From: Hamadaea tsunoensis DSM 44101
GTDB taxonomy: Bacteria; Actinomycetota; Actinomycetes; Mycobacteriales; Micromonosporaceae
Length of the DNA: 64,000 bases
Reading direction: 5' to 3'
Assembly: GCF_000428945.1 (NCBI RefSeq)
Contig: NZ_KE386822.1
Location: forward strand, 62,001 to 126,000
The notes beneath the pieces are model-generated. The model saw only the letters and a program-made list of their open reading frames with translations, was not told the origin of the DNA and searched no databases. A program made the position numbers and the translations under genes. Shown here piece after piece: positions 18,608 to 61,629 of the stretch (position 1 is its first letter; each line of letters starts with the position of its first letter).

Positions 18608-18683
18608 CCGACGATCTTGCGCGAATGCCCCGAATTTCGCGGCGTATGCCCGTTGTGCCGGTACATTCGCGCAAGATCGTCGG
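18608..18683 (-). repeat. 76-bp family A element, copy 1
   Basis: Perfect 20-bp arms CCGACGATCTTGCGCGAATG (18608-18627) and its complement (18664-18683) flank a 36-bp core. The core matches the other copies when read on the minus strand (GGCACAACGGGCATACGCC). It lies between convergent gene ends. Confidence 0.93.
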
Positions 18684-18744
18684 AAGGAAGGGCGGGGCGC
18701 GCCGGGGAGGGGGCGGAGGGGCGGCGGAAGGAAGGGCGGGGCGG

Positions 18745-19416
18745 TCAGGAGGCGGCGAAGCGGTAGCCGGCGCCGCGGACCGTCTGGATCGTGTCCCGGC
18801 CGAACGGCCGGTCCACCTTCTCCCGCAGGTAGCGGACGTAGACGTCGACGACGTTGGAGCCGCTCAGCTGGTCGGAGTCCCAGAGCTTGTCGATGAGATA
18901 GCTGCGCGAGAGGACCTGGTCGGGATGCCGCATCAGCTCATGGAGCAGCCCGAACTCCCGGGCCGACAGGGCCACCGGCTGCCCGTCGCGGGTCACCGTG
19001 CGGCGGGCCGGGTCCAGCGTCACGCCGGCCAGGTTCAGCACCGCCGGCCGCTGGCTGGGCGCCCGCCGGGTCAGGGCGCGCACGCGGGCGTACAGCTCCG
19101 CGAGGGCGACCGGCTTCACGAGATAGTCGTCCGCACCGGCGTCCAGCGCGGTCACCCGGTCGGCCACCGCGTCCCGCGCGGTCAGCACCAGGATCGGGGT
19201 CCAGCGCTCCTCGGCCCGCAGCGTCCGGGTCACGGAGATCCCGTCGCCGCCGGGGATCATCAGATCCAGGACGATCAGGTCGTACGCGAATTCGCGCGCG
19301 GCCCAGAGTGCTTCGGTGCCTGAGCCCGCGAGGTCGACCGCGTACCCCTCGCCGGACAGTCCTCTGCGCAGGGCCCCGGCCAGCGCCGTGTCGTCTTCCA
19401 CCAGAAGCAGCCGCAC
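18745..19416 (-). CDS. OmpR-family response regulator
   Basis: This 223-aa protein has a receiver domain (RLLLVEDD at the N-terminus and the phosphoacceptor in VLDLMIPGG) and a C-terminal winged helix (about 125-220, with DQLSGSNVVDVYVRYLREKV). It should bind DNA when phosphorylated by the kinase encoded next to it. The GTG at 19416 gives normal length. Unusually, it is divergent from its kinase, with only 19 bp between the two start codons. Confidence 0.93.
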   Translation of the reverse strand: MRLLLVEDDTALAGALRRGLSGEGYAVDLAGSGTEALWAAREFAYDLIVLDLMIPGGDGISVTRTLRAEERWTPILVLTARDAVADRVTALDAGADDYLVKPVALAELYARVRALTRRAPSQRPAVLNLAGVTLDPARRTVTRDGQPVALSAREFGLLHELMRHPDQVLSRSYLIDKLWDSDQLSGSNVVDVYVRYLREKVDRPFGRDTIQTVRGAGYRFAAS

Positions 19417-19435
19417 GACGACTACCGTACGCCGG

Positions 19436-20737
19436 GTGAGTCCCCGTCTTCGCCGTTGGACACCGCGTACGCTCCGCGGCCGCATCACCGCGGCGTACCT
19501 GGCCGCGCTGGTGGTGACGCTGGGCGTGTTCGGGATGGTCGGCTCGGCGCTGCTGGTGCACAACCTGCGCGCGGCCGACACCGACGAGGTGACCGCCCGC
19601 CTCGGCGACCTGGCTGCGGCCGTCCAGGCGGGCGACCTCACACCGGTCGACCGGGACCCGTTCGCGCAGGTGATCACCCGCGATCTGGTGACCGCCCGCT
19701 CCTCGGCCGCGCCGAGCAGCCCGGTGCTCACCGACGCCGAGCTCGCCCGGGCCCAGCAGGGACAGATCGTGGTGCACAAACGCGTACCCGGGCTCGGGTC
19801 GGACGCCGTGCTGGTGGCCACGCCGCTGTCGCCGGAGCGGGTGGCGGTCGCCGGATCCAGCCTGGACAGCGTCAACGAGGTGTCCCGCCGGCTCGTCGTC
19901 GGCGTCGCGATCAGCGTGCCGCTGCTCGTCCTGCTGCTGACGCTCGGCGTACGCCGCCTGGTCGGCACGGCGTTGCGGCCGGTCGCCGGGCTCACCGCCG
20001 AGGCACAGGAGATCAGCACCGCCGACCCCGGCGAGCGGCTGCCGGTCCCGCCCGGCGACGACGAGGTGGCCGCCCTCGCGCGTACGCTGAACGGAATGCT
20101 CGACCGGATCGCGGCCGCGTCGCGACGGGAGCGTTCGTTCCTCGACGCCGCCGCGCATGAACTCCGGACGCCGGTGGCGGCACTGCGCGCGGAGCTGGAG
20201 GTCGGTCTGGCCGCGGAGGGCGAGCGGGACGCGCGGCTGGCCCTGCGCGGCGCGCTGCGCGAGGCCGACCGGCTGGGCCGGCTGACCACGGACATGCTGA
20301 CGCTCGCCCGGGCCGGGGCCGGTGAGGTGCCGCTGGAGCGGGTGCCGACCGACGTCACCGACCGGATCCGGGCCACCGCAGCCCGGGTCGCCACCGTCTA
20401 CGCCCTGGCCGTCGAGATCACCGGCGAGGAGGTCGTGGCCGACGTCGATCCCGTCCGGCTCGACCAGGTGGTGACGAACCTGCTGGCCAACGCCGCGCAG
20501 GCGGGTGCGCGCCACGTCGCCGTACGCGTCGGCGAGCCGCTGGTGCTCGTGGTGGACGACGACGGGCCGGGTTTCCCACGCGCGCTGCTGCCGTTGAAGT
20601 TCCGCGACTCCGACGCGCCCGGCCTCGGACTGACCATTGTGGACATGGTGGCCCGTGCGCACGGGGGAGAACTGGTGGTGGGCAACGATTCGCCGCTCGG
20701 CGGTGCCCGCGTCACGGTACGCCTGAGCGCGCCGTGA
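19436..20737 (+). CDS. Membrane sensor histidine kinase
   Basis: This 433-aa kinase has two membrane helices (about residues 15-40 and 150-172) around an extracytoplasmic sensor of about 110 residues, a HAMP domain, HisKA with H241 in AAHELRTP, and a HATPase domain with an N-box (NLLANAAQAG), DDDGPGFP and GLGLTIVD. It should pair with the adjacent OmpR-type regulator. The GTG at 19436 is chosen because upstream in-frame codons would be antisense to the regulator gene. The input signal is unknown. Confidence 0.92.
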   Translation: MSPRLRRWTPRTLRGRITAAYLAALVVTLGVFGMVGSALLVHNLRAADTDEVTARLGDLAAAVQAGDLTPVDRDPFAQVITRDLVTARSSAAPSSPVLTDAELARAQQGQIVVHKRVPGLGSDAVLVATPLSPERVAVAGSSLDSVNEVSRRLVVGVAISVPLLVLLLTLGVRRLVGTALRPVAGLTAEAQEISTADPGERLPVPPGDDEVAALARTLNGMLDRIAAASRRERSFLDAAAHELRTPVAALRAELEVGLAAEGERDARLALRGALREADRLGRLTTDMLTLARAGAGEVPLERVPTDVTDRIRATAARVATVYALAVEITGEEVVADVDPVRLDQVVTNLLANAAQAGARHVAVRVGEPLVLVVDDDGPGFPRALLPLKFRDSDAPGLGLTIVDMVARAHGGELVVGNDSPLGGARVTVRLSAP

Positions 20738-20758
20738 CGGACGAGTGCCCGATACGGA

Positions 20759-20790
20759 GCCGCGGCCGCCTCCCGAGAGACGGCCGCGGC
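20759..20790. terminator. Hairpin between convergent genes
   Basis: GCCGCGGCCG (20759-20768) and CGGCCGCGGC (20781-20790) are perfect 10-bp arms with a 12-bp loop. It separates the ends of the histidine kinase and MBL hydrolase genes and could serve both. Confidence 0.7.
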
Positions 20791-20815
20791 AGGTCCGGCG
20801 GTGTGACCGGTTCGC

Positions 20816-21535
20816 TCAGGCGGCCGCCGCGACCGCCTGGATCTGCCGGATCGCCTCCGGGACGCCGCCGTTCCAGGGCGTGCCGTGGCCCGGCAGCACC
20901 CACGTGGCCGGCAGGTCCGCCAGCCGGGTGAGCGAGGCCAGCGCCTGCTGCGGGTCGTCGGTGAACGGCGCCGGCTGGGGACCGCGCCGCCCGGTGAGGA
21001 CGTGGCGGGTCGTGAGGCCGTCGCCCACGAAGATCGCATCCGCCACCGGCACGGAGACCGCGATGCTGCCGGGGGAGTGGCCCGGCAGGCCGATGATCTG
21101 CGGCGCGCCGGGCAAGTCGAGCACCTGTCCGTCGGCCACCTCGACCACCTCGGTCAGGTAGTTCGTGCGCAGGCCGCCCTTGCGGCTCGCGTACCAGAAG
21201 AAGCCGGCGGTGGCGCCGACCTTCATCGGGCCGTACGCGACCTTGGGCTTGGGGCCGCCCTTGGCGCGCTCGGCGTCGGCGGCGTGGATGTACACCGGTA
21301 CGCCGTGCTCGCGGCGCAGCCGCTCGGCGAACCCGATGTGGTCGCTGTCGCCGTGGGTGAGGACGACGCCGCGGATGTCGTCGAGCGAGCGGCCCATGGT
21401 CGCGAGTTCGGCGGTCAGTTCGCCGTAGTGGCCGGGGAGACCGGCATCGATGACCGTCACGCCTTCATCAGTGTCAACCAGGTAGACCGCGACGATGTCG
21501 TTACCGATGCGGTGCAGGTGCGGGCCGAGCTGCAT
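20816..21535 (-). CDS. MBL-fold metallohydrolase
   Basis: This 239-aa protein has the metallo-beta-lactamase fold: VTVIDAGLPGH, the metal motif THGDSDHIG (H-x-D-x-D-H, so one of the usual histidines is replaced by Asp), GLPGHSPGSIAV and a late VLPGHGTPW. The substrate is unknown; relatives include thiolesterases and lactonases. A GGAGAGGG site precedes the ATG. It is divergent from a TetR gene with a repeat-containing intergenic region, which suggests TetR control of this hydrolase. Confidence 0.87.
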   Translation of the reverse strand: MQLGPHLHRIGNDIVAVYLVDTDEGVTVIDAGLPGHYGELTAELATMGRSLDDIRGVVLTHGDSDHIGFAERLRREHGVPVYIHAADAERAKGGPKPKVAYGPMKVGATAGFFWYASRKGGLRTNYLTEVVEVADGQVLDLPGAPQIIGLPGHSPGSIAVSVPVADAIFVGDGLTTRHVLTGRRGPQPAPFTDDPQQALASLTRLADLPATWVLPGHGTPWNGGVPEAIRQIQAVAAAA

Positions 21536-21588
21536 GGTTGTGCCCTCTCCGAGGATGTTGCTACCTTCCGTCTGATGGCTACGCTACC

Positions 21589-21622
21589 TAGCTATCATGG
21601 CTATGGTCAATAGCTATGATGG
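21589..21622. promoter_or_regulatory. Candidate TetR operator
   Basis: The direct repeats TAGCTATCATGG (21589-21600) and TAGCTATGATGG (21611-21622) are centred 22 bp apart, two helical turns. Each contains the palindrome TAGCTA. They lie between the divergent MBL and TetR genes. Confidence 0.55.
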
Positions 21623-21673
21623 TGTCACGCGCGTCACGGTCGCCGACCGCGTCACGATCGGAAAGGAGGTCGG

Positions 21674-22231
21674 ATGCCCACGCCCGACCGGACCTCGCTC
21701 GACGAGATCATCCGCACCGGCCGCGAGATCCTCGAAAGCGACGGGCTGGGCCGCCTCACCATGCAGGCGGTCGCCGACCGGGTCGGCGTACGCGCACCGT
21801 CGCTGTACAAACGCGTACGCAACCGCGACGATCTCGTCCGGCTCATCGCGGAGGCGATCCTCCTCGACCTGACCGGGCGGCTGGAGGCGGTGGCCGACGG
21901 CGGGGATCCGCGCCGGGAACTCGGGCGGCTGGCCCATGCGCTGCGCGCGTTCGCTCATGCCCAGCCGGCCGGGTACCGCCTCGTCTTCACCTGGGGGCCG
22001 CCCGATCCGGCCACGCTCACCCGCTCCAGCGCGCCGATCCTGCGGGTGGCCGCCCGTCTGGCCGGGCCGGACCACGCGCTCCCGGCCGCGCGCACGATCA
22101 CCGCATGGGCCCACGGGTTCATCGGCATGGAACTGGCCGGGGCCTTCAACCTCGGCGGGGATCTCGACGTCGCCTTCGACTTCGGGATCGCCGCCCTCGC
22201 CGAAGCGCTCACCGCCGCGGGCACGGCCTAG
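21674..22231 (+). CDS. TetR-family transcriptional regulator
   Basis: This 185-aa protein has an N-terminal TetR HTH (about residues 8-55: ILESDGLGRLTMQAVADRVG then APSLYKRVRNRDDL) and a C-terminal ligand-binding domain of the TetR_C WHG-like type. It has a near-consensus ribosome site (AAAGGAGG) six bases before the ATG. Divergence from the MBL hydrolase gene suggests it controls that gene and itself. Confidence 0.9.
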   Translation: MPTPDRTSLDEIIRTGREILESDGLGRLTMQAVADRVGVRAPSLYKRVRNRDDLVRLIAEAILLDLTGRLEAVADGGDPRRELGRLAHALRAFAHAQPAGYRLVFTWGPPDPATLTRSSAPILRVAARLAGPDHALPAARTITAWAHGFIGMELAGAFNLGGDLDVAFDFGIAALAEALTAAGTA

Positions 22232-22258
22232 CCCCCGCCCCCTTCCGCCCGGCTTGTG

Positions 22259-22334
22259 GCGACGATCTTGCGCGAATGTACTGGCATAACAGGCATAAGC
22301 CGCGATTTTCGGGGCATTCGCGCAAGATCGTCGG
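22259..22334 (+). repeat. 76-bp family A element, copy 2
   Basis: Perfect 19-bp arms (22260-22278 and 22315-22333) of the CGACGATCTTGCGCGAATG type flank a 36-bp core. The core shares 27 or more positions with copy 1 read in reverse. It lies between the convergent TetR and beta-helix protein genes. Confidence 0.93.
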
Positions 22335-22343
22335 AAGAGAGGG

Positions 22344-23705
22344 TCAGGCGGAGACGTCGGCGGTCGCCCAGGAGTCGCGGAACGCGTACCGCTTCGGGTT
22401 GGCGGTATAGCGCAGGAACGCGGTGCCCGTCGTCGTGCCCACCGCCGTCGTCGTGTGCTGGAACCGGCAGCCCTCGTAGATCATCTTGCCGTTCGTGAGG
22501 GCGGCGCCGTCGGCCGACACCACGTGGTATCCGCCGAGTACGCAGTCCTGGTACCGCACGATCGGCAGCTTTCCGGCCCCGCCGCCCGTGTACCGGTGGA
22601 AGTTGAGGAAGCCGGGCGCGTCCTGAATCGCGGCCACGTCCGAGCACGACGTGAACGTGACGTTGCCCCGGTTCCAGTCGCAGTCGATGACCTTCTGGTC
22701 CGCGCTCTTCTTCGGCTCGAAGCGTACGCCGTCGACGTTGAGCCGGGCGTCGGTGATGTCGCCGTCCGCGGTGTAGCGCAGGACGAAGTAACGGGCGGCG
22801 GCCGTGCCGACCATCGACCACGAGCCGCCGAGGACGTTGATCGAGCCGCCGCGGTCGAACTTGAGCAGGTCGCCGCCGGCGACGGCGAAGTTGCAGGACA
22901 GGAAGAAGTAGTTCAGGAACTGGTCCTGCGGCTTGCTGCCGGCCGGGTCGGTGATGCCGCAGTGCAGGAACGCGTCGGTGAAGGTGGCGGTGGTGTCGGT
23001 CGAGCAGAGCACGAAGTGGTGCTCGCTGTTGTTGTTGGCGTACTTGTCGCCGTCGATCCCGATCACGCGGTTCCACTTGCCGCGCCACTCGACGTTGCGG
23101 TACTCGAAGTACTGGTTCTGCCCCGCGCCGTACTGCGGGTACACCGAGTCGGCCGCCACCGAGCCGACCGACCAGTAGTACGCGAAGTTGTTGTTCGCGT
23201 TGCCGGAGCTGAAGCTCATGTCCGCGAACGTCGTGTAGCGCAGGCGTACGGCCGCGGTGAGGAGGTTGTTCTCCCTCGGGTCGGCGCTGGCCGCGAAGGC
23301 GGTGTCGAAGGTGATCGTGGTGACGCGGACACCGGCCCCGCGGTAGCGCAGGCCGAAGATCTGATCGGCGGTGCCGGTCGTCGGCGACCACATCAGGATG
23401 TCCTTCTGGGTGATGCGGTAGTTGCCCGGCGGGAAGAAGATCTCCTTCTGCGCGACGCCGCCCACGCGGCCGGCGATCGCCGCGGTCACGGCGGCCTTGA
23501 CCGCCGCCGAGTCGTCCGTGACGCCGTCGCCCTTGGCGCCGTAGGTCTTCACGTCCACGGTGTAGACCGCCGGGTCCGTGTTCGCGGCCGCCGGGTCCGC
23601 GCCCAGCAGGGCCGCCGCGCCCGCGCCGCCGACCGCGGTGCCGACCATGCCGCCGACCATGCCCAGGCCGAGCCTGCGCCGGCTCAGTCTCTCGTCGTAC
23701 GCCAT
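22344..23705 (-). CDS. Tat-exported right-handed beta-helix protein (pectate lyase 3-like)
   Basis: This 453-aa protein starts with a twin-arginine signal (LSRRRLGLGMVGGMVG). The mature part opens with VDVKTYGAKGDGVTDDSAAV, the hallmark of the pectate-lyase-3/phage tail-spike superfamily, then continues as a repetitive beta-rich stretch. No catalytic residues can be assigned, so it may be a polysaccharide lyase, a hydrolase or a structural protein. A good GGAGG site precedes the ATG. Confidence 0.82.
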   Translation of the reverse strand: MAYDERLSRRRLGLGMVGGMVGTAVGGAGAAALLGADPAAANTDPAVYTVDVKTYGAKGDGVTDDSAAVKAAVTAAIAGRVGGVAQKEIFFPPGNYRITQKDILMWSPTTGTADQIFGLRYRGAGVRVTTITFDTAFAASADPRENNLLTAAVRLRYTTFADMSFSSGNANNNFAYYWSVGSVAADSVYPQYGAGQNQYFEYRNVEWRGKWNRVIGIDGDKYANNNSEHHFVLCSTDTTATFTDAFLHCGITDPAGSKPQDQFLNYFFLSCNFAVAGGDLLKFDRGGSINVLGGSWSMVGTAAARYFVLRYTADGDITDARLNVDGVRFEPKKSADQKVIDCDWNRGNVTFTSCSDVAAIQDAPGFLNFHRYTGGGAGKLPIVRYQDCVLGGYHVVSADGAALTNGKMIYEGCRFQHTTTAVGTTTGTAFLRYTANPKRYAFRDSWATADVSA

Positions 23706-23773: not shown

Positions 23774-25003
23774 TCAGGACGGCGGGGTCAGGTCGGCGGC
23801 CCGGTCCAGCAGTGCCCGCCGCTCCGCGTCGCCGTGGGTACGCTCCGCGGCCAGCCGGAACAGCCGGGCGGCGCGTACCGGGTCGCCGTCACGGGCGGTC
23901 AGATCGGCCTCGACGGCCACGGCCAGCGGATAGTCGTCCAGCGCCCCGCCCGTGCGCGCCTGGGCCAGCAGGAGCAGCCCGGCGGCGGCCCCGTACGCGT
24001 ACCCGTGCGCGACCGCGCGGTTCAGCTCGATGACCGGGCTGGGCTGGACGCGGGCCAGCTCGTCGTAGAGCTCCGCGATCCGGGGCCAGTCCGTCGCGTC
24101 GGCCGTCGGGGCGGTCGCGTGGCAGAGGGCGATCCGGGCCTGGAGCGCGTACGCGCCGGAAGTGTCGACAGTGGACAGCACGGACCGTGCCTCGGCGACG
24201 GCGGCGTGGTCCCACCGGGAGCGGTCCTGCTTGTCGAGGGTGACGAGGTGGCCGTCGGCGTCGCGGCGGGCCGCGCGGCGGGAGTCCTGCAGCAGGAAGA
24301 GCGCGAGCAGCGCGGCGGCCTCGGGCTCGGCGGGCAGCAGCCGGGCGAGCAGCCGCGCGAGCCGGACGGCCTCGGCGGCGAAGGCCGGCTCGCCGTCGGC
24401 GTTGTAGCCGGTCGTGAACAGCAGGTAGAGCACTGCCAGCACCCCCGGTACGCGGTCGGCCAGCGCGGCGCCCTCGGGTACGCGGTACGGGATGCGGGCG
24501 TCGGAGATCTTGGTCTTGGCCCGGGTGAGCCGGCGGGTCATCGTGGCCTCGGTGACCAGGAACGCCCGGGCGATGTCGGCGGTCGGGACGGCGCAGATCG
24601 TCCGCAGCGTGAGCGCGACCCGGGCCTCCAGCGGCAGCGCGGGATGGCAGCAGGTGAAGATCAGCCGCAGCCGGTCGTCCTCGACCTCCCCGTCCGCGGC
24701 CTGCTCGGCGGTCGCCGCGGTCAGCGCCAGCACGGCCAGCTCGCGCAGCTTGCGCCGCTCCACGTCGGCCCGGCGCAGCAGATCCAGCGCGCGGTTGCGG
24801 GCGACGGTCATCAGCCAGCCGCCGGGATTGCCGGGAACGCCGTCCGCGGGCCATCGCGCCAGCGCCTGCGCCAGCGCGTCCTGCGCGCAGTCCTCGGCCA
24901 GGGTCCAGTCGCCGGTGATCCGGATGAGGGCCGCCACGATCCGGGGGTACGCGTCCACGGCCGCCTGGGCGGCGGCAGCCCGTGCCTCATCACTCACCCG
25001 CAC
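23774..25003 (-). CDS. ECF RNA polymerase sigma factor with C-terminal extension (ECF42-type)
   Basis: This 409-aa protein has sigma region 2 (about residues 10-75, DWTLAEDCAQDALAQAL), region 4 (about 115-165, VPTADIARAFLVTEATMTRR) and a long alpha-helical TPR-like extension of about 230 residues containing the conserved FTTGYNADGEPAFAAEA. This architecture is typical of group ECF42, which is controlled through the extension and normally encoded with DGPF/YCII-domain proteins. No such partner is in the window. The start is GTG at 25003 or 24997. Confidence 0.9.
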   Translation of the reverse strand: MRVSDEARAAAAQAAVDAYPRIVAALIRITGDWTLAEDCAQDALAQALARWPADGVPGNPGGWLMTVARNRALDLLRRADVERRKLRELAVLALTAATAEQAADGEVEDDRLRLIFTCCHPALPLEARVALTLRTICAVPTADIARAFLVTEATMTRRLTRAKTKISDARIPYRVPEGAALADRVPGVLAVLYLLFTTGYNADGEPAFAAEAVRLARLLARLLPAEPEAAALLALFLLQDSRRAARRDADGHLVTLDKQDRSRWDHAAVAEARSVLSTVDTSGAYALQARIALCHATAPTADATDWPRIAELYDELARVQPSPVIELNRAVAHGYAYGAAAGLLLLAQARTGGALDDYPLAVAVEADLTARDGDPVRAARLFRLAAERTHGDAERRALLDRAADLTPPS

Positions 25004-25318
25004 ACCCTACTGACGAACGCGTACCCCCACTGCGGACGCCGCCCTTCTCGCGAGGGCTCAGGATCCCGCGCCCTCGTCCGCCGATCCCGCGCCCTCGTTC
25101 GACGATCCTGAGCCCTCGTTCGGCGATCTTGCGCGAATGTTCGGGCTTGTTGGGCATTCCAGGCAGATTTTCGGACATTCGCGCAAGATCGCCGCGATGG
25201 CGGTTCGCCGGGATGCAAGTTGCATCGACGGTTCCCGTGGGCGGTTGAACCGCATATGCTCGGTACCGGATCTCCGGCCGCCCTCGGGCGGCGCGGTCGC
25301 CGGCTGAAAGGTGTGTCG
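25004..25318. other. 315-bp divergent intergenic region
   Basis: It separates the sigma factor gene from the second DUF574 methyltransferase. It contains three short direct repeats near 25060-25120 (variants of GATCCTGAGCCCTCGTTCG) followed by the family A element at 25120-25195. Promoters for both genes should lie here, though no consensus is clear. Confidence 0.6.
25120..25195 (+). repeat. 76-bp family A element, copy 3 (covarying arms)
   Basis: Perfect 20-bp arms CGGCGATCTTGCGCGAATGT (25121-25140) and complement (25175-25194). Relative to the other copies an A-T pair is changed to G-C on both sides, a compensatory change that keeps the stem. This is the only copy between divergent genes. 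Confidence 0.93.
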
Positions 25319-26125
25319 ATGGAACGTCCCCGCTGGGCACCCGACGGCCTGGATCTCGATCGGCCCAGCGTGGCCCGGGTCTACGACTACTACCTGGGCG
25401 GATCGCACAACTTCGCGGTGGATCGCGAGTTCGCCGAGCAGGTCATCGGCCAGATGCCCAACGTGCCCGAGCTGACCCGGCAGAACCGCGGCTTCCTGCG
25501 CCGGGCGGTCCGCGATCTGGCGCGCGCGGGGGTGGAGCAGTTCGTCGACCTCGGCTCCGGCATACCGACGGTGGGCAACGTGCACGACGTCGCCCAGGAG
25601 ATCAACCCGGCCGCCCGCGTGGCCTATGTGGACTGGGATCCGGTCGCGGTCGCGCACGGCCAGGCCATTCTGGAGGACAACCCGCGCACGGCCGTGATCG
25701 GCGCCGATCTGCGCGACCCCGCGGCGGTCTTCGCGCAGCCGGCGGTGAGCGCGCTCATCGACCCGGCCAAGCCGACGGCCGTGCTGCTCATCGCGGTGCT
25801 CCACTTCGTGCCGGACGAGGAGAAGCCGGCCGATCTCGTGGCCGCCATCGCCGGCCTGCTCGCGCCCGGCAGCTACATCGCGATCTCGCACGCCAGCCCG
25901 GAGAAGGAGGAGTCGGTGCTCGACCGGGCGGCGACCCTCTACCGGCAGACGGCCAGCCCGGTGACCACCCGGTCGCCCGCCGAGATCGCGGCCCTCTTCG
26001 GCGACCTGGAAATGCTCGACCCCGGTGTCGTGCGTACGCCGCTGTGGCGGCCGGACTTCCCGGACGAGCTCGGACCGGAGGCGGCGGCGTATCCGGGGTG
26101 CGCCGGCGTCGCCCGCGTCGGGTAG
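25319..26125 (+). CDS. SAM-dependent methyltransferase, DUF574 / Methyltransf_19 family (copy 2)
   Basis: This 268-aa protein carries the family signature ARVYDYYLGGSHNFAVDREF and the SAM-loop FVDLGSGIPT, then YVDWDPVAVAHG. It is clearly paralogous to the gene at 5437. The ATG at 25319 follows GAAAGGTG. A PAS-GGDEF-EAL gene starts 12 bp downstream on the same strand, so the two are almost certainly cotranscribed. The methyl acceptor is unknown. Confidence 0.88.
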   Translation: MERPRWAPDGLDLDRPSVARVYDYYLGGSHNFAVDREFAEQVIGQMPNVPELTRQNRGFLRRAVRDLARAGVEQFVDLGSGIPTVGNVHDVAQEINPAARVAYVDWDPVAVAHGQAILEDNPRTAVIGADLRDPAAVFAQPAVSALIDPAKPTAVLLIAVLHFVPDEEKPADLVAAIAGLLAPGSYIAISHASPEKEESVLDRAATLYRQTASPVTTRSPAEIAALFGDLEMLDPGVVRTPLWRPDFPDELGPEAAAYPGCAGVARVG

Positions 26126-35879: not shown

Positions 35880-35906
35880 CCGTCGATCATCGCGCGCGGG
35901 ATGCCC

Positions 35907-35960
35907 CGATGATCCCGTTTGGACCAGGGAACCCGCCCGAATCTTGGACCAAGATCACGC
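35907..35960. repeat. Degenerate family B element, copy 2
   Basis: The left half and centre align with the 83-bp element (GATCCCGTTTGGACCAGGG, then GCCCGAATCTTGG / CCAAGATC), but the right outer arm is eroded. It lies between the divergent lysX and phosphoketolase genes, unlike the intact copies at 5321 and 48241, which lie between convergent gene ends. Confidence 0.7.
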
Positions 35961-36027
35961 GCGGCGGACGACCTGAAGATGGGCGAACGCGCTACGCGGC
36001 ACCTTCGCGTTTGGCACCGTGATAGCC

Positions 36028-41197: not shown

Positions 41198-41267
41198 TGT
41201 TCCTCCCTCAGCAATGCCTACGGGCGGTCGTGTACCCGAACGTCCCGTTCGCAAACCCGGCGGCAGT

Positions 41268-41350
41268 TCAAGATCCTGCTTGGATCACGGTTGTCACCCG
41301 AATCTTGGGCCATGATCCGGGTGATTTCCCTGATCCAAGCGGGATCATGG
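41268..41350. repeat. 83-bp nested hairpin element, family B copy 3
   Basis: Imperfect outer arms (TCAAGATCCTGCTTGGATCA facing TGATCCAAGCGGGATCATGG) flank an inner stem TCACCCGAATCTTGG/CATGATCCGGGTGA. The total length equals that of copies 1 and 4. It lies upstream of the acetyltransferase gene and its last bases supply an ATG that should not be taken as the start. Confidence 0.9.
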
Positions 41351-41391
41351 GGCCGGGCGGGGGCCGGGTGGAGGTGCGGGAAGATGGGGGT

Positions 41392-48106: not shown

Positions 48107-48240
48107 GAAGGGATCCTACCCGTTACCGTGTCGCCGGTTCCACCCGCCTCCGCCGACTCGCCGCAAGCTCTGTCCGTCCGGCGGATCCCCCGCTCCCGAG
48201 CCCGCCCAGCCGGGCCAACCCCAAGATCCTTGGCTGACGC

Positions 48241-48323
48241 CCAAGATCCTGCTTGGATCAGGGAAATCACCCGAATCTTGGGCCATGATCCGGGTGATTT
48301 CCGTGATCCGAACAGGATCGTCG
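48241..48323. repeat. 83-bp nested hairpin element, family B copy 4
   Basis: The inner stem is long: GGAAATCACCCGAATCTTG pairs with CATGATCCGGGTGATTTCC with two mismatches. The outer arms are CCAAGATCCTGCTTGGATCA against GTGATCCGAACAGGATCGTCG-type sequence, partly eroded. It lies between converging genes, 18 bp before the DUF7144 stop. Confidence 0.9.
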
Positions 48324-48340
48324 ACGTGGACGGGACGCGG

Positions 48341-50467: not shown

Positions 50468-51544
50468 GTGCCGATAGACGCTTTTCTGCTGCTTTCCTTC
50501 GGCGGCCCCGAGGGCCCCGACGACGTCCTGCCCTTCCTGCGCAACGTGACGGCGGGGCGGGGCGTCCCGGAGGAGCGGCTGCTCGAGGTGGCCGAGCACT
50601 ACCAGCATTTCGGCGGCGTCTCGCCGATCAACGAGCAGTGCCGCGTACTGCTGCGGGCCATCGAGGCCGACTTCCGCGACCAGGGAGTCGGCCTCCCGCT
50701 GTACTGGGGCAACCGGAACTGGAAGCCCCTGCTCGCCGACACCGTGGCGCGGATGCGCGACGACGGGATCACGCACGCGATCGCCCTCGCCACCAGCGCG
50801 TACGCCGGATATTCGTCGTGCCGGCAGTACCTGGAGGACATCGAGGCGGCCCGTGCCCACGTGGGACCGGGCGCGCCCGAGATCACGAAGCTCCCGCACT
50901 TCTACGACCGGCCCGGCTTCATCGAGCCCAACGCCGACGCCGTACGCGACGCGCTGGCCAAGGTCGGCGGCGACGCCCATCTGGTGTTCACGGCGCACTC
51001 CGTCCCCGTCTCGGCGGCGCGTACGGCGGGGCCGCCCGCCGACGAGCGCTCGCGCGAGTCGCCAGGAGTGCGGTCAGGGAACCTCTACGAGGACCAGCTG
51101 CGGGAGGCGGCCAGGCTGGTGGCCGAACGGGTCGACCCGGCCCTGTCCTGGGATCTCGTCTGGCAGTCGCGCTCCGGCCCGCCGCAGGTCCCGTGGCTGG
51201 AGCCGGACGTGAACGACTTCCTGCGTACGCTGCCGGCGCGCAACGTCGTGGTGAGCCCGATCGGTTTCGTCTCCGACCACCTCGAGGTCGTCTGGGATCT
51301 GGACACGGAGGCCGCCGCGACTGCCGCCGAACTGGGGATGGGATACGCCCGGGCGGCCACCGCCGGCACCGATCCACGGTTTGTGCGTATGGTCACAGAC
51401 CTCGTACAAGAGGCGTTCACCCCGTCCGACCCACGCCCGTCACAGGGGCTCGGTACGCTTTCGCGCAGACAGACGTGCGGTGCGGGCTGCTGCCCGCGCC
51501 AAACGCGGCCGCGGATGGGTGTGGGAGCAGATGAGCGAGCGTAA
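50468..51544 (+). CDS. hemH: Ferrochelatase (HemH/CpfC)
   Basis: This 358-aa protein inserts iron into (copro)porphyrin. It reads AFLLLSFGGPEGPDDVLPFL at the N-terminus and has the catalytic histidine in FTAHSVPVSA and the glutamate region in SPIGFVSDHLEVVWDLD. Actinobacterial members act on coproporphyrin III. A C-terminal tail with CGAGCC (about residues 340-345) may bind the [2Fe-2S] cluster known in actinobacterial ferrochelatases. The last 14 bp overlap the next gene. The order fabG-inhA-hemH matches Rv1483-Rv1485. Confidence 0.94.
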   Translation: MPIDAFLLLSFGGPEGPDDVLPFLRNVTAGRGVPEERLLEVAEHYQHFGGVSPINEQCRVLLRAIEADFRDQGVGLPLYWGNRNWKPLLADTVARMRDDGITHAIALATSAYAGYSSCRQYLEDIEAARAHVGPGAPEITKLPHFYDRPGFIEPNADAVRDALAKVGGDAHLVFTAHSVPVSAARTAGPPADERSRESPGVRSGNLYEDQLREAARLVAERVDPALSWDLVWQSRSGPPQVPWLEPDVNDFLRTLPARNVVVSPIGFVSDHLEVVWDLDTEAAATAAELGMGYARAATAGTDPRFVRMVTDLVQEAFTPSDPRPSQGLGTLSRRQTCGAGCCPRQTRPRMGVGADERA

Positions 51545-52310
51545 GCCGATCGAGAGCTGGCTGACCGACATGGACGGCGTCCTCGTGCACGAGGGTGTGC
51601 CGGTCCCGGGCGCCACGGACTTCATCGGCCGGCTGCGCGCCTCCGGCAAGCCGTTCCTGGTGCTCACCAACAACAGCATCTACACGCCGCGCGACCTGCA
51701 CGCGCGGCTGACCCGGCTCGGCTTCGACCTGCCCGAGGACGCGATCTGGACCTCGGCCCTCGCGACCGCGCAGTTCCTGGCCGACCAGCGGCCGGGCGGC
51801 AGCGCGTTCGTCATCGGGGAGGCCGGCCTGACCACGGCGCTGCACTCGGCGGGCTACATCCTCACCGACTACAAGCCGGACTACGTCGTGCTCGGAGAGA
51901 CCCGCAACTACAGCTTCGAAGCGATCACCACGATGATCCGCCTGATCAACAACGGCTCGCGGTTCATCTGCACGAACCCGGACGCCACCGGCCCCTCGAA
52001 CGAGGGCGCGCTGCCGGCCGCCGGCTCGGTCGCCGCCCTCGTCACCAAGGCCACCGGCGTCGAGCCGTACTTCGTGGGCAAGCCGAACCCGATGATGATG
52101 CGTTCGGCGCTCAACAAGATCGGCGCGCATTCCGAGTCGGCCGCGATGATCGGCGACCGGATGGACACCGACGTGCTCTGCGGCCTGGAGGCAGGGCTGC
52201 GCACGTTCCTCGTCCTCACCGGGATCAGCAGCAAGGAGGACGTGGAGCGCTATCCGTTCCGCCCGTCCGAGGTGGTCGACTCCGTGGCATCCCTGGTGGA
52301 CCGCATCTGA
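51531..52310 (+). CDS. HAD-IIA family phosphatase (NagD-like)
   Basis: This 259-aa protein has motif I WLTDMDGVLVHEG (D-x-D intact), motif II LVLTNNSIYTPRD, the cap segment GETRNYSFEAITTM, the lysine in FVGKPNP and motif IV IGDRMDTDVLCG. NagD-type enzymes dephosphorylate nucleotides or sugar phosphates. The start ATG 51531 lies within hemH with GGGAG upstream, so it is cotranscribed. Confidence 0.92.
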   Translation: MSERKPIESWLTDMDGVLVHEGVPVPGATDFIGRLRASGKPFLVLTNNSIYTPRDLHARLTRLGFDLPEDAIWTSALATAQFLADQRPGGSAFVIGEAGLTTALHSAGYILTDYKPDYVVLGETRNYSFEAITTMIRLINNGSRFICTNPDATGPSNEGALPAAGSVAALVTKATGVEPYFVGKPNPMMMRSALNKIGAHSESAAMIGDRMDTDVLCGLEAGLRTFLVLTGISSKEDVERYPFRPSEVVDSVASLVDRI

Positions 52311-52326: not shown

Positions 52327-52402
52327 CCGACGATCTTGCGCGAATGTCCCGGCATTTCGGGCATAGCCGACGAAAGTTGAGGCATTCGCGCAAGATCGTT
52401 GG
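52327..52402 (+). repeat. 76-bp family A element, copy 4
   Basis: The 20-bp arms CCGACGATCTTGCGCGAATG (52327-52346) and CATTCGCGCAAGATCGTTGG (52383-52402) differ from perfect pairing by one G-T, which in RNA read on this strand is a G-U wobble. The 36-bp core contains GGCATTTCGGGCAT. It follows the NagD-like gene stop by 16 bp. Confidence 0.93.
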
Positions 52403-52681: not shown

Positions 52682-52722
52682 GACGCCACCCGCTACCACC
52701 CGCCACCGCGGGGCACCCATAT

Positions 52723-52849
52723 CGGACAGTCGCGACAAAGGCCGAATCGGCCGCGCTGAACCAGCCGCGCCGAACCGGCCGCGCCAGCCGCCGTGACCTC
52801 CACAGTGTCGCGGGGCGCTGAGCGTACAAGTCGGACAGTCGCGACAAAG
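52723..52849 (+). repeat. Two direct copies of the family D 18-mer
   Basis: CGGACAGTCGCGACAAAG occurs exactly at 52723-52740 and 52832-52849. The same motif, inverted and paired, is found at 10417-10511. Confidence 0.85.
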
Positions 52850-52911
52850 GGCCGCGAGCCTAAGGGGCGGCGGGCCTAAGGGGCAGCGGGGCGTGAGGAG
52901 CGGAGGCTGGA

Positions 52912-53703
52912 TCAGATCAGGGGCGCGTTGATGGCCGCGGTGATGGCGCGGCGTGACGCGGCGGCCAGCGGGCGCAGGGCCTCGTCGCGGCGCTGGGCCT
53001 CGAACGCGTTGAGCGAGCCGCCGGGCGCTTCCTGGCCGGCGAGGATGAGGACCCGTTCGAGCAGGAGCGCGCGCGAGTAGAGGCGGCGTGCGGGGCCGTC
53101 GTAGCCGGGCGGGAGTTCGGCCTCGGTGGGGCGGCGCAGGGCCGAGATCGCACTGCCGAGTTCGGGCCGCCAGCGGGCGACGTCGAGGCGGGCGAGTTCG
53201 GTGGTCGTCTCCTGGAGCGCGAGCGACAACTCCCCGTCGGCCTCGCGCACCGTGGGGCGGGGGCCGTTCGGGTGCAGCGGGGGCGCCTCGAAGGCCTGCC
53301 AGCTGACGGTGACGAAGACGTCGCCCGAACCGGACACGTGCTCGGTGGTCTGCGGTGTGAGACCCATGATCCCGGCCAGTACGCCTTCCCCCGCCGTCAG
53401 CGCCGAGGCGGTGAACTCGCCCGGGCCGAGGCCGTCGGGGTCGCCGGGCGCGGGCAGGGTCAGCCGGATCTCGTCCGGGTGCAGCTGGCGCAGGTGCGGC
53501 AGGGCATCCCGCAGCGGCAGGGCGGACCACGTGCCGGGCAGTTCGGTGGCCAGGTGTTCCTCGGCGGGCGCCTGCGGCGGGCGTTCGATGTTGTCGATCG
53601 CATCGTCGAAGGAGGACAGACCCGCGCGCCACGCCCGGCACCACGCCACGAAGCGGGCCGAGCGACGTTCGGCGAGGGCCACCGAGTGCGCCGCAGCTGA
53701 CAT
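52912..53703 (-). CDS. Conserved actinobacterial protein of unknown function
   Basis: This 263-aa soluble protein has no recognised domain. It has a helical N-terminus (VALAERRSARFVAWCRAW), a central proline-rich beta-like part (RLTLPAPGDPDGLGPGEF) and a helical C-terminus. Its place after hemH and on the opposite strand corresponds to Rv1486c in M. tuberculosis; homology is likely but was not tested. It may be part of the conserved fabG-inhA-hemH neighbourhood. Confidence 0.78.
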   Translation of the reverse strand: MSAAAHSVALAERRSARFVAWCRAWRAGLSSFDDAIDNIERPPQAPAEEHLATELPGTWSALPLRDALPHLRQLHPDEIRLTLPAPGDPDGLGPGEFTASALTAGEGVLAGIMGLTPQTTEHVSGSGDVFVTVSWQAFEAPPLHPNGPRPTVREADGELSLALQETTTELARLDVARWRPELGSAISALRRPTEAELPPGYDGPARRLYSRALLLERVLILAGQEAPGGSLNAFEAQRRDEALRPLAAASRRAITAAINAPLI

Positions 53704-57991: not shown

Positions 57992-57992
57992 G

Positions 57993-59054: not shown

Positions 59055-59065
59055 GTCCTGATCAC

Positions 59066-59111
59066 GTGCCCCGGTGGGCGTCCGGCCTTCGCCGGCCGCC
59101 GGCCGGGGCAC
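59066..59111. terminator. Nested hairpin after the nfeD-SPFH operon
   Basis: The outer arms GTGCCCCGG (59066-59074) and CCGGGGCAC (59103-59111) enclose an inner stem CCGGC-CTTC-GCCGG region. It ends ten bases before the GTG of the methyltransferase gene. Confidence 0.7.
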
Positions 59112-59120
59112 AATGACGTC

Positions 59121-59921
59121 GTGGACCTGATCACCTCCGCGGCGGACGAGCGGATCGCCGACTACCGGGCGCTGACCGACGTCGAGCTGCGTACGCGCTG
59201 GGAGCCCCCGCACGGCCTGTTCATCGCCGAGGGGGAACTCGTGCTCCGCCGGGCGCTCGCCGCCGGTTACGTCCCGCGCAGCTTCCTCGTCGAGGCGAAG
59301 CGGACGGCCCAGATCGCCGACCTCGCCGGCCTGGCGCCGGTCTACGCGGGCGACGCGGACGTGCTGGAGGAGATCACCGGTTTCCACGTGCACCGCGGGG
59401 TGCTGGCGAGTTTCCACCGCAAGCCGCTGCCCGCGCCGGCCGAGGTACTGGCCGCCGCCCGCCGGGTCGTCATCCTGGAGGACATCAACAACCACACGAA
59501 CATCGGCGCGATCTTCCGGGGCGTCGCCGGGCTCGGGATGGACGCCGTCCTGCTCTCGCCCACCTGCGCGGACCCGCTCTACCGCCGCAGCGTACGCGTG
59601 AGCATGGGCGAGGTGTTCGCCATCCCGTACGCCTTCCTCGCCGACTGGCCGGCCGGCCTGGACGACGTCCGCAAGGCCGGGTTCACCGTGCTGGCCCTGA
59701 CCCCGTCCGCCGACGCGGTCCCGATGAACCTCCTCGACGCCGCGCGGCGAGAACGCCCGGCTCTGCTCATGGGCGCGGAGGGTCCGGGGCTGTCCCGGCA
59801 CGCACTGGCGGCCAGCGACATCCGCGTACGCATCCCCATGCGGCGTGGTGTGGATTCGCTGAACGTGGCCGCGGCGACCGCCGTCGCGTGCTGGGAACTG
59901 ACCCGCGACGATCCGGCCTGA
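59121..59921 (+). CDS. SpoU/TrmH-family RNA 2'-O-ribose methyltransferase
   Basis: This 266-aa SPOUT enzyme has an N-terminal substrate-binding part (about residues 1-100, FIAEGELVLRRALAAGY) and the trefoil-knot motifs NHTNIGAIFR, LLSPTCADPLYRRSVRVSMG and LLMGAEGPGLS followed by MRRGVDSLNVAAATAVACW. It methylates tRNA or rRNA; the site cannot be told from sequence. The start is GTG 59121. The PucR gene follows after 2 bp. Confidence 0.92.
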   Translation: MDLITSAADERIADYRALTDVELRTRWEPPHGLFIAEGELVLRRALAAGYVPRSFLVEAKRTAQIADLAGLAPVYAGDADVLEEITGFHVHRGVLASFHRKPLPAPAEVLAAARRVVILEDINNHTNIGAIFRGVAGLGMDAVLLSPTCADPLYRRSVRVSMGEVFAIPYAFLADWPAGLDDVRKAGFTVLALTPSADAVPMNLLDAARRERPALLMGAEGPGLSRHALAASDIRVRIPMRRGVDSLNVAAATAVACWELTRDDPA

Positions 59922-59923
59922 CC

Positions 59924-61543
59924 ATGGCCGACCCCGTCCTGCCGACCGTACGCGACGTCGTGGCGCTCGCCCCGATGCAGGTGGGCGAGCCGCGTATCGT
60001 CGCCGGCGCGCGGTATCTCGACCGGCCCGTCCGCTGGGTGCACTCCTCGGAGGTGCCCGACATCGCCTCCCTGCTCAAGGGCGGTGAACTGGTCCTCATC
60101 ACCGGGATCGGCCTGCCCGCCGAGGACGACGGCGTCCGCGCCTTCGTCCAGGACCTCGCCGGCGTCGGGGTCGCCGGTCTCGTGGTGGAACTCGGCCGCC
60201 GCTACATCGGCAGCGTCCCGAAGACGATGGCGGCCGCCGCCGAGGAGTACGCCCTGCCGCTCGTCGAGCTGCGTCGGCCGACCCCGTTCGTGCAGATCAC
60301 CGAGGCGGTACACGCGCTCATCGTGGACGCCCAGCTGACCGAGCTGCGCGCCTCCGAGGAGATCCACCAGCGGTTCACCGAGCTGAGCGTCGAGGGCGCC
60401 GAGCCAGCCGAGGTCGTGCACCAGGCCGCCCAACTGGCCGGGTACCCGATCGTGCTGGAGAACCTGGCCCGCAAGGTGCTCGCCTTCGACGCCGCCGGCG
60501 GCCGCGCCGAACTCCTGCTCGACGGCTGGGAGCAGCACTCCCGGCGGATCGCCGTCGCCGGGCGTACCGGCTACGACGCCGAGGCCGGCTGGCTGGTCAC
60601 CGCGGTCGGTGCTCGCGGGCAGGACTGGGGGCGGCTGCTGCTGCGCTGGCCGGGCGCGGGCGACCCGCCGACCCGGCTGACCATCCTGCTCGAACGCGCG
60701 GCCTCCACGCTCGCGCTCGGCCGCCTCATCCGCCGCGACGAGCAGGGCCTGGAACGCCAGCTGCACGGCACCCTGCTGGCCGCCCTCCTCGACCACAGCC
60801 TGCCGGTCGACGAGGTCTCGCTGCGCGCCCGGGCCCTCGGCGTCACCCTCGACAAGCGGCGGCTGGTCGGCGTGGTCGTCCGTCCCCGCCTGCCCGGGGC
60901 CGACAGCGCCGAGGCGGCCGCCCGCCTGCGCGACCTGGCCGACACCGCCAGCCAGGCCGTCCGCGACGCCAAGCTCACCGGCCTGCTCAGCGTCCTCGAC
61001 GACCAGGTCGTCGGCGGCCTGCTCGCCGTCCGCTCGGCCGCCGACGAGGACGCCGCCCTCACCCGCTTCGCCGCCGCCCTGCGCCGCGGCCGCGAGGAGG
61101 TGCTCATCGCCGCCGGCTCCGGAGTGGACAGCCTGCGCGAAGCCCGCCGCTCCCTCGTGGAGGCCCGCCAGGTCGCCGACGCCGCCCGCCACGACGCTCC
61201 GCCGGCCGCGCCCGTCCTGCGCCTGCCGCACGTCGGCCTCGCGGGCCTGCTCCACCTGCTGCGCGACGAGCCCCGCCTGCAGACCTTCGTGGAACGCCAG
61301 CTGGGCGCGCTGCTCGCGTACGACGCCCAGCACCCCCGGGATCAACTGCTGCCCACCCTCCGCGTCTACCTGGAGGCGGGCCGCAACAAGTCCATCGCGG
61401 CGTCAGCCGCGCACCTGTCCCGCCCGGCCTTCTACGAACGCCTCGCCCGCATAGGCCGGATCCTCGACGTGGACCTGGATTCCGTCGCGGTCTGCCTCTC
61501 GCTCCACGTCGCACTCCTGGCCTGGGAGGCCATTCGTTCCTGA
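59924..61543 (+). CDS. PucR-family transcriptional regulator
   Basis: This 539-aa protein has an N-terminal PucR domain (about residues 8-130, with VRWVHSSEVPDIASLLKGGE), a GGDEF-related central segment and a C-terminal PucR-type HTH (AGRNKSIAASAAHLSRPAFY then ERLARIGRILDVDLD). Regulators of this family sense intermediates of purine, amino acid or GABA catabolism. The aminotransferase/dehydrogenase operon 750 bp downstream is a likely target. Confidence 0.92.
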   Translation: MADPVLPTVRDVVALAPMQVGEPRIVAGARYLDRPVRWVHSSEVPDIASLLKGGELVLITGIGLPAEDDGVRAFVQDLAGVGVAGLVVELGRRYIGSVPKTMAAAAEEYALPLVELRRPTPFVQITEAVHALIVDAQLTELRASEEIHQRFTELSVEGAEPAEVVHQAAQLAGYPIVLENLARKVLAFDAAGGRAELLLDGWEQHSRRIAVAGRTGYDAEAGWLVTAVGARGQDWGRLLLRWPGAGDPPTRLTILLERAASTLALGRLIRRDEQGLERQLHGTLLAALLDHSLPVDEVSLRARALGVTLDKRRLVGVVVRPRLPGADSAEAAARLRDLADTASQAVRDAKLTGLLSVLDDQVVGGLLAVRSAADEDAALTRFAAALRRGREEVLIAAGSGVDSLREARRSLVEARQVADAARHDAPPAAPVLRLPHVGLAGLLHLLRDEPRLQTFVERQLGALLAYDAQHPRDQLLPTLRVYLEAGRNKSIAASAAHLSRPAFYERLARIGRILDVDLDSVAVCLSLHVALLAWEAIRS

Positions 61544-61553
61544 AGCGCAGCGC

Positions 61554-61629
61554 CCGACGATCTTGCGCGAATGTTCGGGCATTTCGGGCGTACCGGACGA
61601 AATTCGAGACACTCGCGCAAGATCGTCGG
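61554..61629 (+). repeat. 76-bp family A element, copy 5
   Basis: The 20-bp arms (61554-61573 and 61610-61629, CCGACGATCTTGCGCGAATG type) have a single A-C mismatch, which is a G-U wobble if the minus strand is transcribed. The core contains GGCATTTCGGGCGTACCGG. It lies between the convergent PucR and GNAT genes. Confidence 0.93.

Follow-up and report, generated by a model that had tools for sequence, protein, structure and literature searches.

A dispersed 76-bp hairpin of fixed length at gene 3' ends in Hamadaea tsunoensis and its possible role as a bidirectional terminator

The window, a 64,000-nucleotide stretch of Hamadaea tsunoensis DSM 44101 DNA, contains five copies of a 76-bp element, each composed of 20-nt inverted arms around a 36-nt core. 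Their positions, covariance model (CM) scores, and neighboring predicted genes are as follows.

18608..18683, minus strand: 76-bp hairpin, copy 1; arms 18608-18627 and 18664-18683, 36-nt core; CM 94.9 bits; between convergent predicted genes 16317-18236(+) and 18745-19416(-)
22259..22334, plus strand: 76-bp hairpin, copy 2; arms 22259-22278 and 22315-22334; CM 90.0 bits; between convergent predicted genes 21674-22231(+) and 22344-23705(-)
25120..25195, plus strand: 76-bp hairpin, copy 3; arms 25120-25139 and 25176-25195, with a paired arm change; CM 87.5 bits; between divergent predicted genes 23774-24958(-) and 25370-26125(+)
52327..52402, plus strand: 76-bp hairpin, copy 4; arms 52327-52346 and 52383-52402; CM 93.4 bits; between convergent predicted genes 51531-52310(+) and 52912-53682(-)
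61554..61629, plus strand: 76-bp hairpin, copy 5; arms 61554-61573 and 61610-61629; CM 96.1 bits; between convergent predicted genes 59924-61543(+) and 61641-62129(-)

These coordinates were confirmed in the sequence. The same five copies formed the top direct-repeat family of the window in a repeat search, in which copy 1 was inverted relative to the other four. Further details of the preliminary description also held: copy 3 has A-T changed to G-C in both arms, and copies 4 and 5 carry single wobble changes (one G.U in copy 4; in copy 5, an A.C on the oriented strand that is G.U on the other). By our own codon-usage gene calls, four of the five copies lie between convergent predicted genes, copy 3 being the exception. 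Neither an Rfam match above the gathering score nor a tRNA was found in the window. A locus search with a protein neighboring the element led to three distant loci.

The abundance of the element is far above chance. With a covariance model built from 30 copies, at least 150 copies were found in the genome (150 of 150 scored candidates at E ≤ 7.2e-21), and arm counts put the genome-wide number at about 220. Half-arm matches with up to three mismatches numbered 244 + 263 in the genome, against 30 + 36 for the reversed pattern, and exact 13-bp arm pairs occurred 124 times, against 0 in the control. In 1.22 Mb of slices from the 9.48-Mb genome, the covariance search gave 88 copies at 81.8 bits or more and one at 67.7 bits, the other matches being weak (24 bits or less), and the core was exactly 36 nt in 87 of 89 copies. 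The genome-wide search that had been proposed earlier returned many further copies, nearly all of one length in the slices, and so does not refute the element.

The inner arms, which themselves served to find the copies, were nearly invariant, with the arm motif CGATCTTGC, and core positions were off consensus in 22% of cases. The core was asymmetric, as first described, and conserved in part, with copies about 70% identical there. The arm motifs are 52 bp apart from start to start, or about five helical turns. Such a near-invariant motif at fixed spacing would point to a factor that recognizes the arm sequence specifically. The earlier claim of covarying arms was weakly true in this genome, where conservation is chiefly of sequence and covariation is modest: 2 of 21 arm pairs were changed on both sides, a value matched or beaten in 184 of 500 shuffles, and 8 cells were changed on both arm sides, against 2.5 in shuffles. 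A nested structure in the core, sought through covariation, was rejected, since the strongest column links join neighboring blocks (positions 22-24 and 41-44) and so point to exchangeable modules rather than pairs. Across 87 copies, a stable hairpin was predicted both ways, with mean minimum free energies of -48.3 and -44.3 kcal/mol on the two strands.

Near-identical copies were found in unrelated flanks. For 15 of 15 copy pairs with two or fewer core differences (pairs wholly inside a composite-repeat group excluded), both flanks were less than 60% identical. Thus, the element is a discrete dispersed unit, and its mobility is supported by this comparison of sequences. Together with the constant length, the copy number, and the placement at gene ends, the unrelated flanks bear out the initial view of a defined structured element rather than random palindromes. 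Among 87 copies, direct repeats of 2 to 10 bp directly outside the element, as left by target-site duplication, were not above the swapped-flank expectation (2-bp repeats, 2 seen and 4.1 expected), and the 12 bases on either side held no conserved motif, the element ends being mostly paired. One outlier was observed two bases further out, where 3-bp repeats were seen 5 times against 1.0 expected in the same 87 copies.

The RAYT-type transposase gene suggested at the outset did not turn up: Y1 (PF01797) had 0 matches in this genome, and 5 of 14 control genomes were positive. Another genus of the same family carries a related hairpin, usually of 77 bp. There, Y1 was present in 6 of 11 genomes and did not track the elements: it was absent in carriers G137 and G146, and G140, with three Y1 copies, yielded no exact arm pair. 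Of these 11 species, seven carry the hairpin with exact arm pairs, G140 has a decayed copy, and three have another hairpin family. Mobilization by RAYT/Y1 is unsupported, as the gene was not found in the window's genome or in these two sister-genus carriers. An autonomous parent with the same ends was not seen in the 1.22 Mb of slices. Phages, plasmids, and viral contigs gave no match, the viral scan using one exact arm pattern.

A REP/MITE-like selfish element without host function might explain these data, although we regard this as doubtful. It would survive at 3' ends because it is harmful elsewhere, and its arms would be kept because a trans-acting enzyme needs them. A discrete 76-bp unit in unrelated flanks is what such an element would look like, and no match was found in three congeneric genomes. 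Hardly any decayed copies were found by the covariance search in the 1.22 Mb (besides the copy at 67.7 bits, one cut by a contig end and two split by insertion). The arm search tolerated up to four mismatches per 16-nt arm and met hardly any, although heavily decayed copies would escape. However, target duplication, Y1 transposase, and, in the slices, an autonomous partner with the same arms were all missing.

In total, 81 of the 87 copies lay in gaps between predicted genes, the contexts being 45 convergent, 30 tandem, 6 divergent, 4 at slice edges, and 2 inside genes predicted with our own codon-usage caller rather than taken from annotation. Convergent gaps make up 25.9% of the intergenic length, and elements were enriched there (P = 1.4e-8) in a sample whose slices outside C1:1-360000 were mostly centered on exact or best-matching copies. 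Within the 360 kb taken without such selection, 7 of 18 copies were convergent and the enrichment was not significant (P = 0.16). The median distance was 49.5 bp to gene 3' ends, compared with 150 bp to 5' ends. Mapping against gene ends, as had been recommended, placed the copies mainly at 3' ends, with convergent gaps favored.

Relative to tandem genes, 15 copies had the same orientation and 15 the opposite one. This indifference to gene direction suits a selfish element, the core being polar yet its use strand-neutral, and it leaves the earlier small-RNA reading unsupported. If one strand were read as a small RNA or a cis RNA element, this would account for the asymmetric core and for the G.U pairs confined to one strand in some arm columns. 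The G.U bias looked promising in those columns, but once both directions were counted the two strands had 40 and 29 such pairs, with no clear bias (22 arm columns, 34 sister-genus copies). As the window also lacks an Rfam match, we consider this explanation extremely improbable.

The flanks of the element were skewed in mirror image. C reached 0.48-0.52 and G 0.22-0.25 on the left, with the reverse on the right, compared with about 0.32-0.36 each in control gaps, and a C-rich, G-poor stretch of 60-100 nt precedes the hairpin on each strand. The same mirror skew surrounds family 2, the sister-genus family, and a third family, and all four hairpin families lie mainly at gene 3' ends, with C enriched in the left flank and G in the right. 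No such skew was seen around unique hairpins at convergent ends (left, C 0.40 and G 0.31; right, C 0.36 and G 0.31). Extended pairing between the flanks was rejected as its cause, since the gains over swapped flanks were too small, both in duplex energy (-33.8 versus -32.9; sd, 0.55) and in contiguous stem extension (1.36 versus 1.02; sd, 0.13). Upstream C-rich, G-poor RNA is a feature of Rho-dependent terminators and is present at the element. In tandem pairs, the side toward the next gene was skewed just as strongly, and termination from there serves no obvious use; this counts against a terminator reading.

A U-tract was absent, with 1.1 T in the 8 nt after convergent copies compared with 2.4 after unique convergent hairpins, and on this ground membership among intrinsic terminators was rejected. 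If the copies were ordinary intrinsic terminators sharing sequence by coincidence, a strong hairpin on both strands and a location after stop codons would be expected, as was found. However, the copies are dispersed versions of one sequence, the 36-nt core stands against a median loop of 8 nt in unique hairpins, and neither the missing U-tract nor the skew fits, so this explanation is highly unlikely.

In the sister genus, one exact length was found in 34 of 41 copies, differing by one nucleotide from that of the window's family, and nine arm pairs were invariant in all 34 exact-length copies. Arm covariation was clearer there than in the window's genome. Covariation was seen in the pairs that adjoin the invariant segment on its inner side (both-side changes in 30 cells versus 12.1; 0 of 500 shuffles), and the number of pairs with both-side changes was not exceptional (8 versus 6.4; 115 of 500 shuffles). 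In three species that lack the sister-genus hairpin, another hairpin family, also of fixed length, occupies the two orthologous gene ends examined; the third family has unrelated arms and the same habits.

A protein-binding site would make the hairpin secondary: the spaced arm motifs would bind a DNA protein, whether a roadblock, a gyrase-like protein, or a nucleoid protein, by which converging polymerases are stopped or relaxed. Positive supercoils meet at convergent gene ends, and the nine invariant pairs and the single exact length in both families would be natural for such a site. The covariation just inside the invariant segment and the like behavior of a third family with unrelated arms speak against it, and we consider it rather unlikely.

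In 15 comparisons of orthologous sites in the sister genus, 11 of 390 arm positions differed, compared with 70 of 643 in the core, 1199 of 16623 in coding sequence, and 352 of 3350 in the intergenic flank, which had 387 gap columns in addition. The arms changed about four times less than the core or flanks (arms versus core, P = 1e-6), in pairs drawn from element-based hits, which favors conserved elements. L145 enters two of the 15 comparisons, and L065:4453 and L068:10171, probably one locus at two contig ends, were both counted; the intergenic region is poorly called in L140/L146, without which the result holds. These sequence differences support constraint on the arms at standing orthologous copies, which the spread of a selfish element alone leaves unexplained.

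Ordinary hairpins were scarce beside the repeats. In the window's genome, with repeats masked first, 7 of 64 convergent gaps that hold a family-1 or family-2 element had one, compared with 29 of 77 gaps that hold neither (P = 3.9e-4), a rarity that also counts against a selfish element. In long gaps (150-400 bp unmasked), this substitution pattern was absent (2 of 4 with the element, 0 of 8 without). Two loci only were followed across 11 species, which belong to few clades and are not independent. At Q1, six species have no repeat hairpin, and the gap of five of these contains an ordinary hairpin, as does none of the five gaps that have a repeat; the ordinary-hairpin match of G137 falls past the stop codon of the next gene. 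At Q2, it was present in 11 of 11 species, repeat carriers included, and the repeat was altogether absent from two species, so the repeat is dispensable there.

MITEs are short, noncoding sequences with terminal inverted repeats, dispersed as units. The element shares these traits and differs in its fixed internal length and in lacking a target-site duplication and, in the slices, a parent with the same ends. DNA uptake sequences are also abundant as single copies. An uptake motif was rejected here because single arms were nearly absent: five unpaired arms occurred in 1.22 Mb at up to two mismatches, of which two were attributed to insertions and the others to a chance match, a contig end, and a truncation. 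Inverted uptake sequences are described in PMC2267715 as forming gene-end terminators, and the element resembles them in having a short conserved motif in inverted pairs that form gene-end hairpins. REPs of the GTAG and CGTC superfamilies, according to the main text of PMC3733652, in which "actinobact" does not occur, are 20-40 bp long, have a stem of 5-13 bp and a loop of 2-20 bp, and bear a tetranucleotide tag that stays unpaired, and CGTC REPs also lack a known transposase. Like the REPs described there, the element is palindromic, high in copy number, and intergenic, downstream of genes or between convergent genes, and its families are species specific with several per genome. Unlike them, it is 76 bp long with 20-bp arms, a fixed 36-nt core, and skewed flanks, it has no GTAG/CGTC tag, and Y1 transposase was not found (PMC3733652). 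The proposed general class, REP/MITE-like or bidirectional terminator, stands, without the RAYT, size, and tag features of REPs. In the relevant parts of a Streptomyces Term-seq report (PMC12207403), transcript ends are GC-rich, with long stable hairpins and weak U-tracts, Rho is perhaps used more often, and A-rich tracts, a usual mark of bidirectional terminators, are virtually missing. The element is likewise GC-rich, with a long stable hairpin, few Us, and no T-run, whereas those parts of the report do not present the Streptomyces ends as a dispersed repeat whose arms are invariant and whose core is fixed (PMC12207403).

We put at about an even chance that these REP-like mobile hairpins are used as bidirectional, U-tract-less, possibly Rho-assisted terminators. 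The anatomy of a bidirectional terminator, a hairpin that is stable on either strand and lies close to gene ends that face each other, is present, and the hairpin probably helps end transcription from both sides. The 76-bp unit would spread whole via some enzyme and be retained mainly at gene 3' ends. Read from either side, the 20-bp stem would fold into a strong hairpin that may stall the polymerase or shield against 3' exonucleases. Rho may load onto the C-rich leader, and a sequence-specific factor would read the arms. We infer termination, the role of Rho, and this factor from the arrangement of the element. A plain terminator would need neither invariant arms nor an exact 36-nt core, which counts against a terminator reading. 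As a more tentative extension, several lineages of one actinobacterial family may have independently evolved mobile fixed-length hairpins as sequence-specific bidirectional terminators, each family with its own arm-reading factor and a two-strand C-rich leader, the families replacing each other or ordinary terminators at the same gene ends in different species.

Little is understood of how transcripts end without U-tracts in very GC-rich bacteria, notably between facing genes. A dispersed hairpin under constraint where it stands, often at sites without ordinary terminators, and exchanged there for unrelated hairpins would tie mobile DNA directly to the ends of transcripts. With a mirror C-to-G skew around four families, the idea of Rho involvement becomes testable, and species that lack or have lost a family would serve as natural controls for tracing the arm-reading factor.

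The five copies of the 76-bp element in the window were found exactly where the preliminary description had placed them and form the window's top repeat family; our own gene caller likewise put four between convergent genes, with one (25120-25195) between divergent genes. In the surrounding genome (9.48 Mb, 68 contigs), a covariance model gave at least 150 matches, all with E values of ≤7.2e-21, and 146 of the 150 matches listed had the exact 76-bp length, as read from their coordinates. A single arm half with ≤3 mismatches occurred 244 + 263 times, versus 30 + 36 times for the reversed control, which points to ~220 full copies. For copy analysis, 60 slices plus the window (1.22 Mb) were sampled, including a contiguous 360 kb of contig C1 selected independently of copies. 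Within this sample, the core was 36 nt in 87 of 89 paired elements, and 88 of the 89 scored ≥81.8 bits, with one at 67.7 bits. Below that lay one copy truncated by a contig end (55 bits) and two broken by insertions (~30 bits), and the remaining weak matches were at ≤24 bits. Decaying copies were nearly absent.

The arms and the core behave very differently. Mismatches per copy averaged 0.10 over 26 inner arm positions versus 8.0 over the 36-nt core, with cores oriented iteratively against a profile (minimum margin, 29). Among 87 copies, 83 distinct core sequences were found, with a pairwise identity of about 70%. The strongest links between core columns joined neighboring blocks that occur in alternative versions, and the core is thus best described as a fixed-length mosaic of modules. 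The mean folding energies on the two strands were -48 and -44 kcal/mol, a strong hairpin on each.

Of 354 genomes of the bacterial family, 8 had exact 13-bp arm pairs (control, 0): 129 in the window's own genome and 2 to 20 in each of seven genomes of a sister genus. Three other congeners of the window's genome had no exact arm pair and no BLAST match to the element. The GATC-to-GATC length was 67 nt in all sister-genus copies among the matches listed, versus 66 nt in the window's genome, and one copy in genome G139 was 1 nt shorter than usual for the sister genus; the sister-genus unit is therefore usually, not always, 1 nt longer. A single exact length was shared by 34 of 41 sister-genus copies, the others ranging from 57 to 72; 21 of the 41 were convergent, 13 tandem, and 3 divergent, and 4 lay in predicted genes. 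Nine arm pairs were invariant across the 34 exact-length copies. Covariation was seen just inside them, where 30 cells were changed on both sides versus 12.1 after shuffling (0/500), an excess that can be inflated by relatedness; the number of pairs changed on both sides (8 versus 6.4; 115/500) was not exceptional.

Copies with nearly the same core often occupy different surroundings. Of 45 copy pairs with ≤2 core differences, 23 had <60% identity in both 20-bp flanks, and after exclusion of pairs with both copies in larger composite repeats, the flanks were unrelated in 15/15, which indicates that the 76-bp unit spreads by itself. No target duplication was evident at the copies, and the RAYT-type (Y1) transposase proposed as something to look for was not found in the window's genome. 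The same insertion interrupts the core of two different copies (L036:15498-15578 and L061:13557-13637); in both, an open frame encoding an HTH_38 domain, a domain of IS30-type transposases, lies at the insertion start. Identical copies and flanks on two contigs (L065:4453 and L068:10171) are probably a single locus assembled twice. The short motif GGACAGTCGCGACAAAGG often lies beside 76-bp copies and belongs to composite repeats of roughly 400 to 650 bp flanked by inverted 76-bp copies, several of them close to contig ends. Other repeats were also seen.

Repeats besides the 76-bp element (window positions unless a locus is named)
10421-10507, 52707-52741, 52816-52850; also L036, L037, L066: motif GGACAGTCGCGACAAAGG
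L061:524-587, L065:4255-4318, L066:5598-5661, and others: hairpin family beginning TTGATCA, several copies 63-65 bp
16815-17291: two ~210-nt direct copies, 75% identical, within a predicted coding region
5320-5403: family 2 hairpin
41267-41351: family 2 hairpin
48237-48327: family 2 hairpin
35906-35964: partial relative of family 2

Spread of the unit accounts for the copies; it does not account for what was found at orthologous sites. Over 15 orthologous comparisons among sister-genus species, located via the elements and thus biased toward conserved ones, 11/390 arm positions differed, versus 70/643 in the core, 352/3350 (plus 387 gap columns) in the intergenic flank, and 1199/16623 in coding sequence. 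The arms of standing copies are thus under constraint. The core changed at a flank-like rate (P = 0.78), and its length was unchanged in 11 of 15 comparisons.

Of the 87 copies, 45 lay in convergent gaps, 30 in tandem gaps, and 6 in divergent gaps; a further 4 were at slice edges, and 2 fell within predicted genes. Copies were enriched in convergent gaps, which represent 25.9% of the intergenic length (P = 1.4e-8); in the unselected 360 kb alone, 7 of 18 were convergent, which was not significant (P = 0.16). In tandem pairs, the element lay in the same orientation 15 times and the opposite 15 times. With families 1 (the 76-bp element) and 2 masked beforehand, an ordinary hairpin (stem ≥9, loop 3 to 10) was present in 7/64 convergent gaps with an element versus 29/77 without (P = 3.9e-4). 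By unmasked gap length, the counts were 1/27 versus 13/36 (30 to 80 bp) and 2/13 versus 9/16 (80 to 150 bp), and ran in the opposite direction at 150 to 400 bp (2/4 versus 0/8).

Family 2 (CCAAGATCC...GGATCTTGG) was exactly 83 bp long in 30 of 36 matches in the 1.22 Mb, with central halves in two interchangeable versions; its placement resembled that of the 76-bp element, with 20 matches in convergent, 9 in tandem, and 4 in divergent gaps, 2 at edges, and 1 in a gene. At L040:6225-6331, the left arm of a 76-bp element is truncated and lies directly against an 83-bp element. Among 43 convergent gaps of ≥20 bp in the unselected 360 kb, one of four repeat families was present in 19, and families 1 and 2 never occurred together.

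Two orthologous convergent loci, Q1 and Q2, were compared across all 11 sister-genus species. At Q2, the hairpin was present in five species and missing from two, with 5 bp in place of about 121 in the query, and G019, G144, and G145 carried a different hairpin in its place. G140 (L177) retained a decayed relic, aligning to the real copies of three species with scores of 21.5 to 23.5 (shuffled control, about 10; SD, 1.6 to 1.8); its genome has no exact arm pair, yet contains three open Y1 transposase frames. An ordinary hairpin lay alongside in 11/11 species, and Q2 therefore shows no substitution. Two species had the hairpin at Q1, G019, G144, and G145 had the different one, and six had neither. 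An ordinary hairpin was found in the Q1 gap of 5/6 species without a repeat hairpin and 0/5 with one, the match in G137 falling past the next gene's stop codon, outside the gap; the G140 gap had no perfect stem of ≥8. The replacing hairpin, a third family, was matched 62 to 74 times per genome in G019, G144, and G145, counting both strands; four carriers had no match, and the other four species had 1 to 10. In 20/20 copies examined its arm-to-arm length was 59, with 16 convergent and 4 tandem. Altogether, four families of gene-end hairpins with a fixed length were distinguished; two have the same arms, and all four have similar habits.

Around 76-bp copies, the left flank was C-rich and the right flank G-rich over about 60 to 100 bp (about 0.4 to 0.5 versus 0.2 to 0.3), maximally close to the element and alike in convergent, tandem, and divergent settings. 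Family 2 and the third family showed the same skew; in control gaps, C and G were about equal. Unique hairpins in the window's genome had short loops (median, 8) and no mirror skew, and at convergent ends had more T after the stem than 76-bp elements. Locus-specific flank pairing did not account for the skew when tested. Short tandem repeats, noted by eye, are common in the flanks (e.g., L009:2871, L012:15277, and L028:7627) and look slippage-prone beside the hairpin. Rho loads at C-rich, G-poor RNA, and leader RNA arriving from either side would be of this kind.

A terminator role accounts for where the elements lie, why ordinary hairpins are scarce in gaps that hold them, and how another hairpin can take their place; the invariant arms and fixed core are left unexplained. 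REP elements are the nearest known class, and the 76-bp element differs from them in size, stem, tag, and transposase, as these are defined in PMC3733652; PMC12207403, PMC4681348, and PMC2267715 served for further comparison. No description of these hairpins was recognized among the best-ranked matches of a literature search by title and abstract opening, with few subscription papers covered. Since spread and a terminator role each explain part of the findings, we favor a mobile hairpin that may serve as a bidirectional transcript end, in which a sequence-specific factor putatively reads the arms and Rho may assist.
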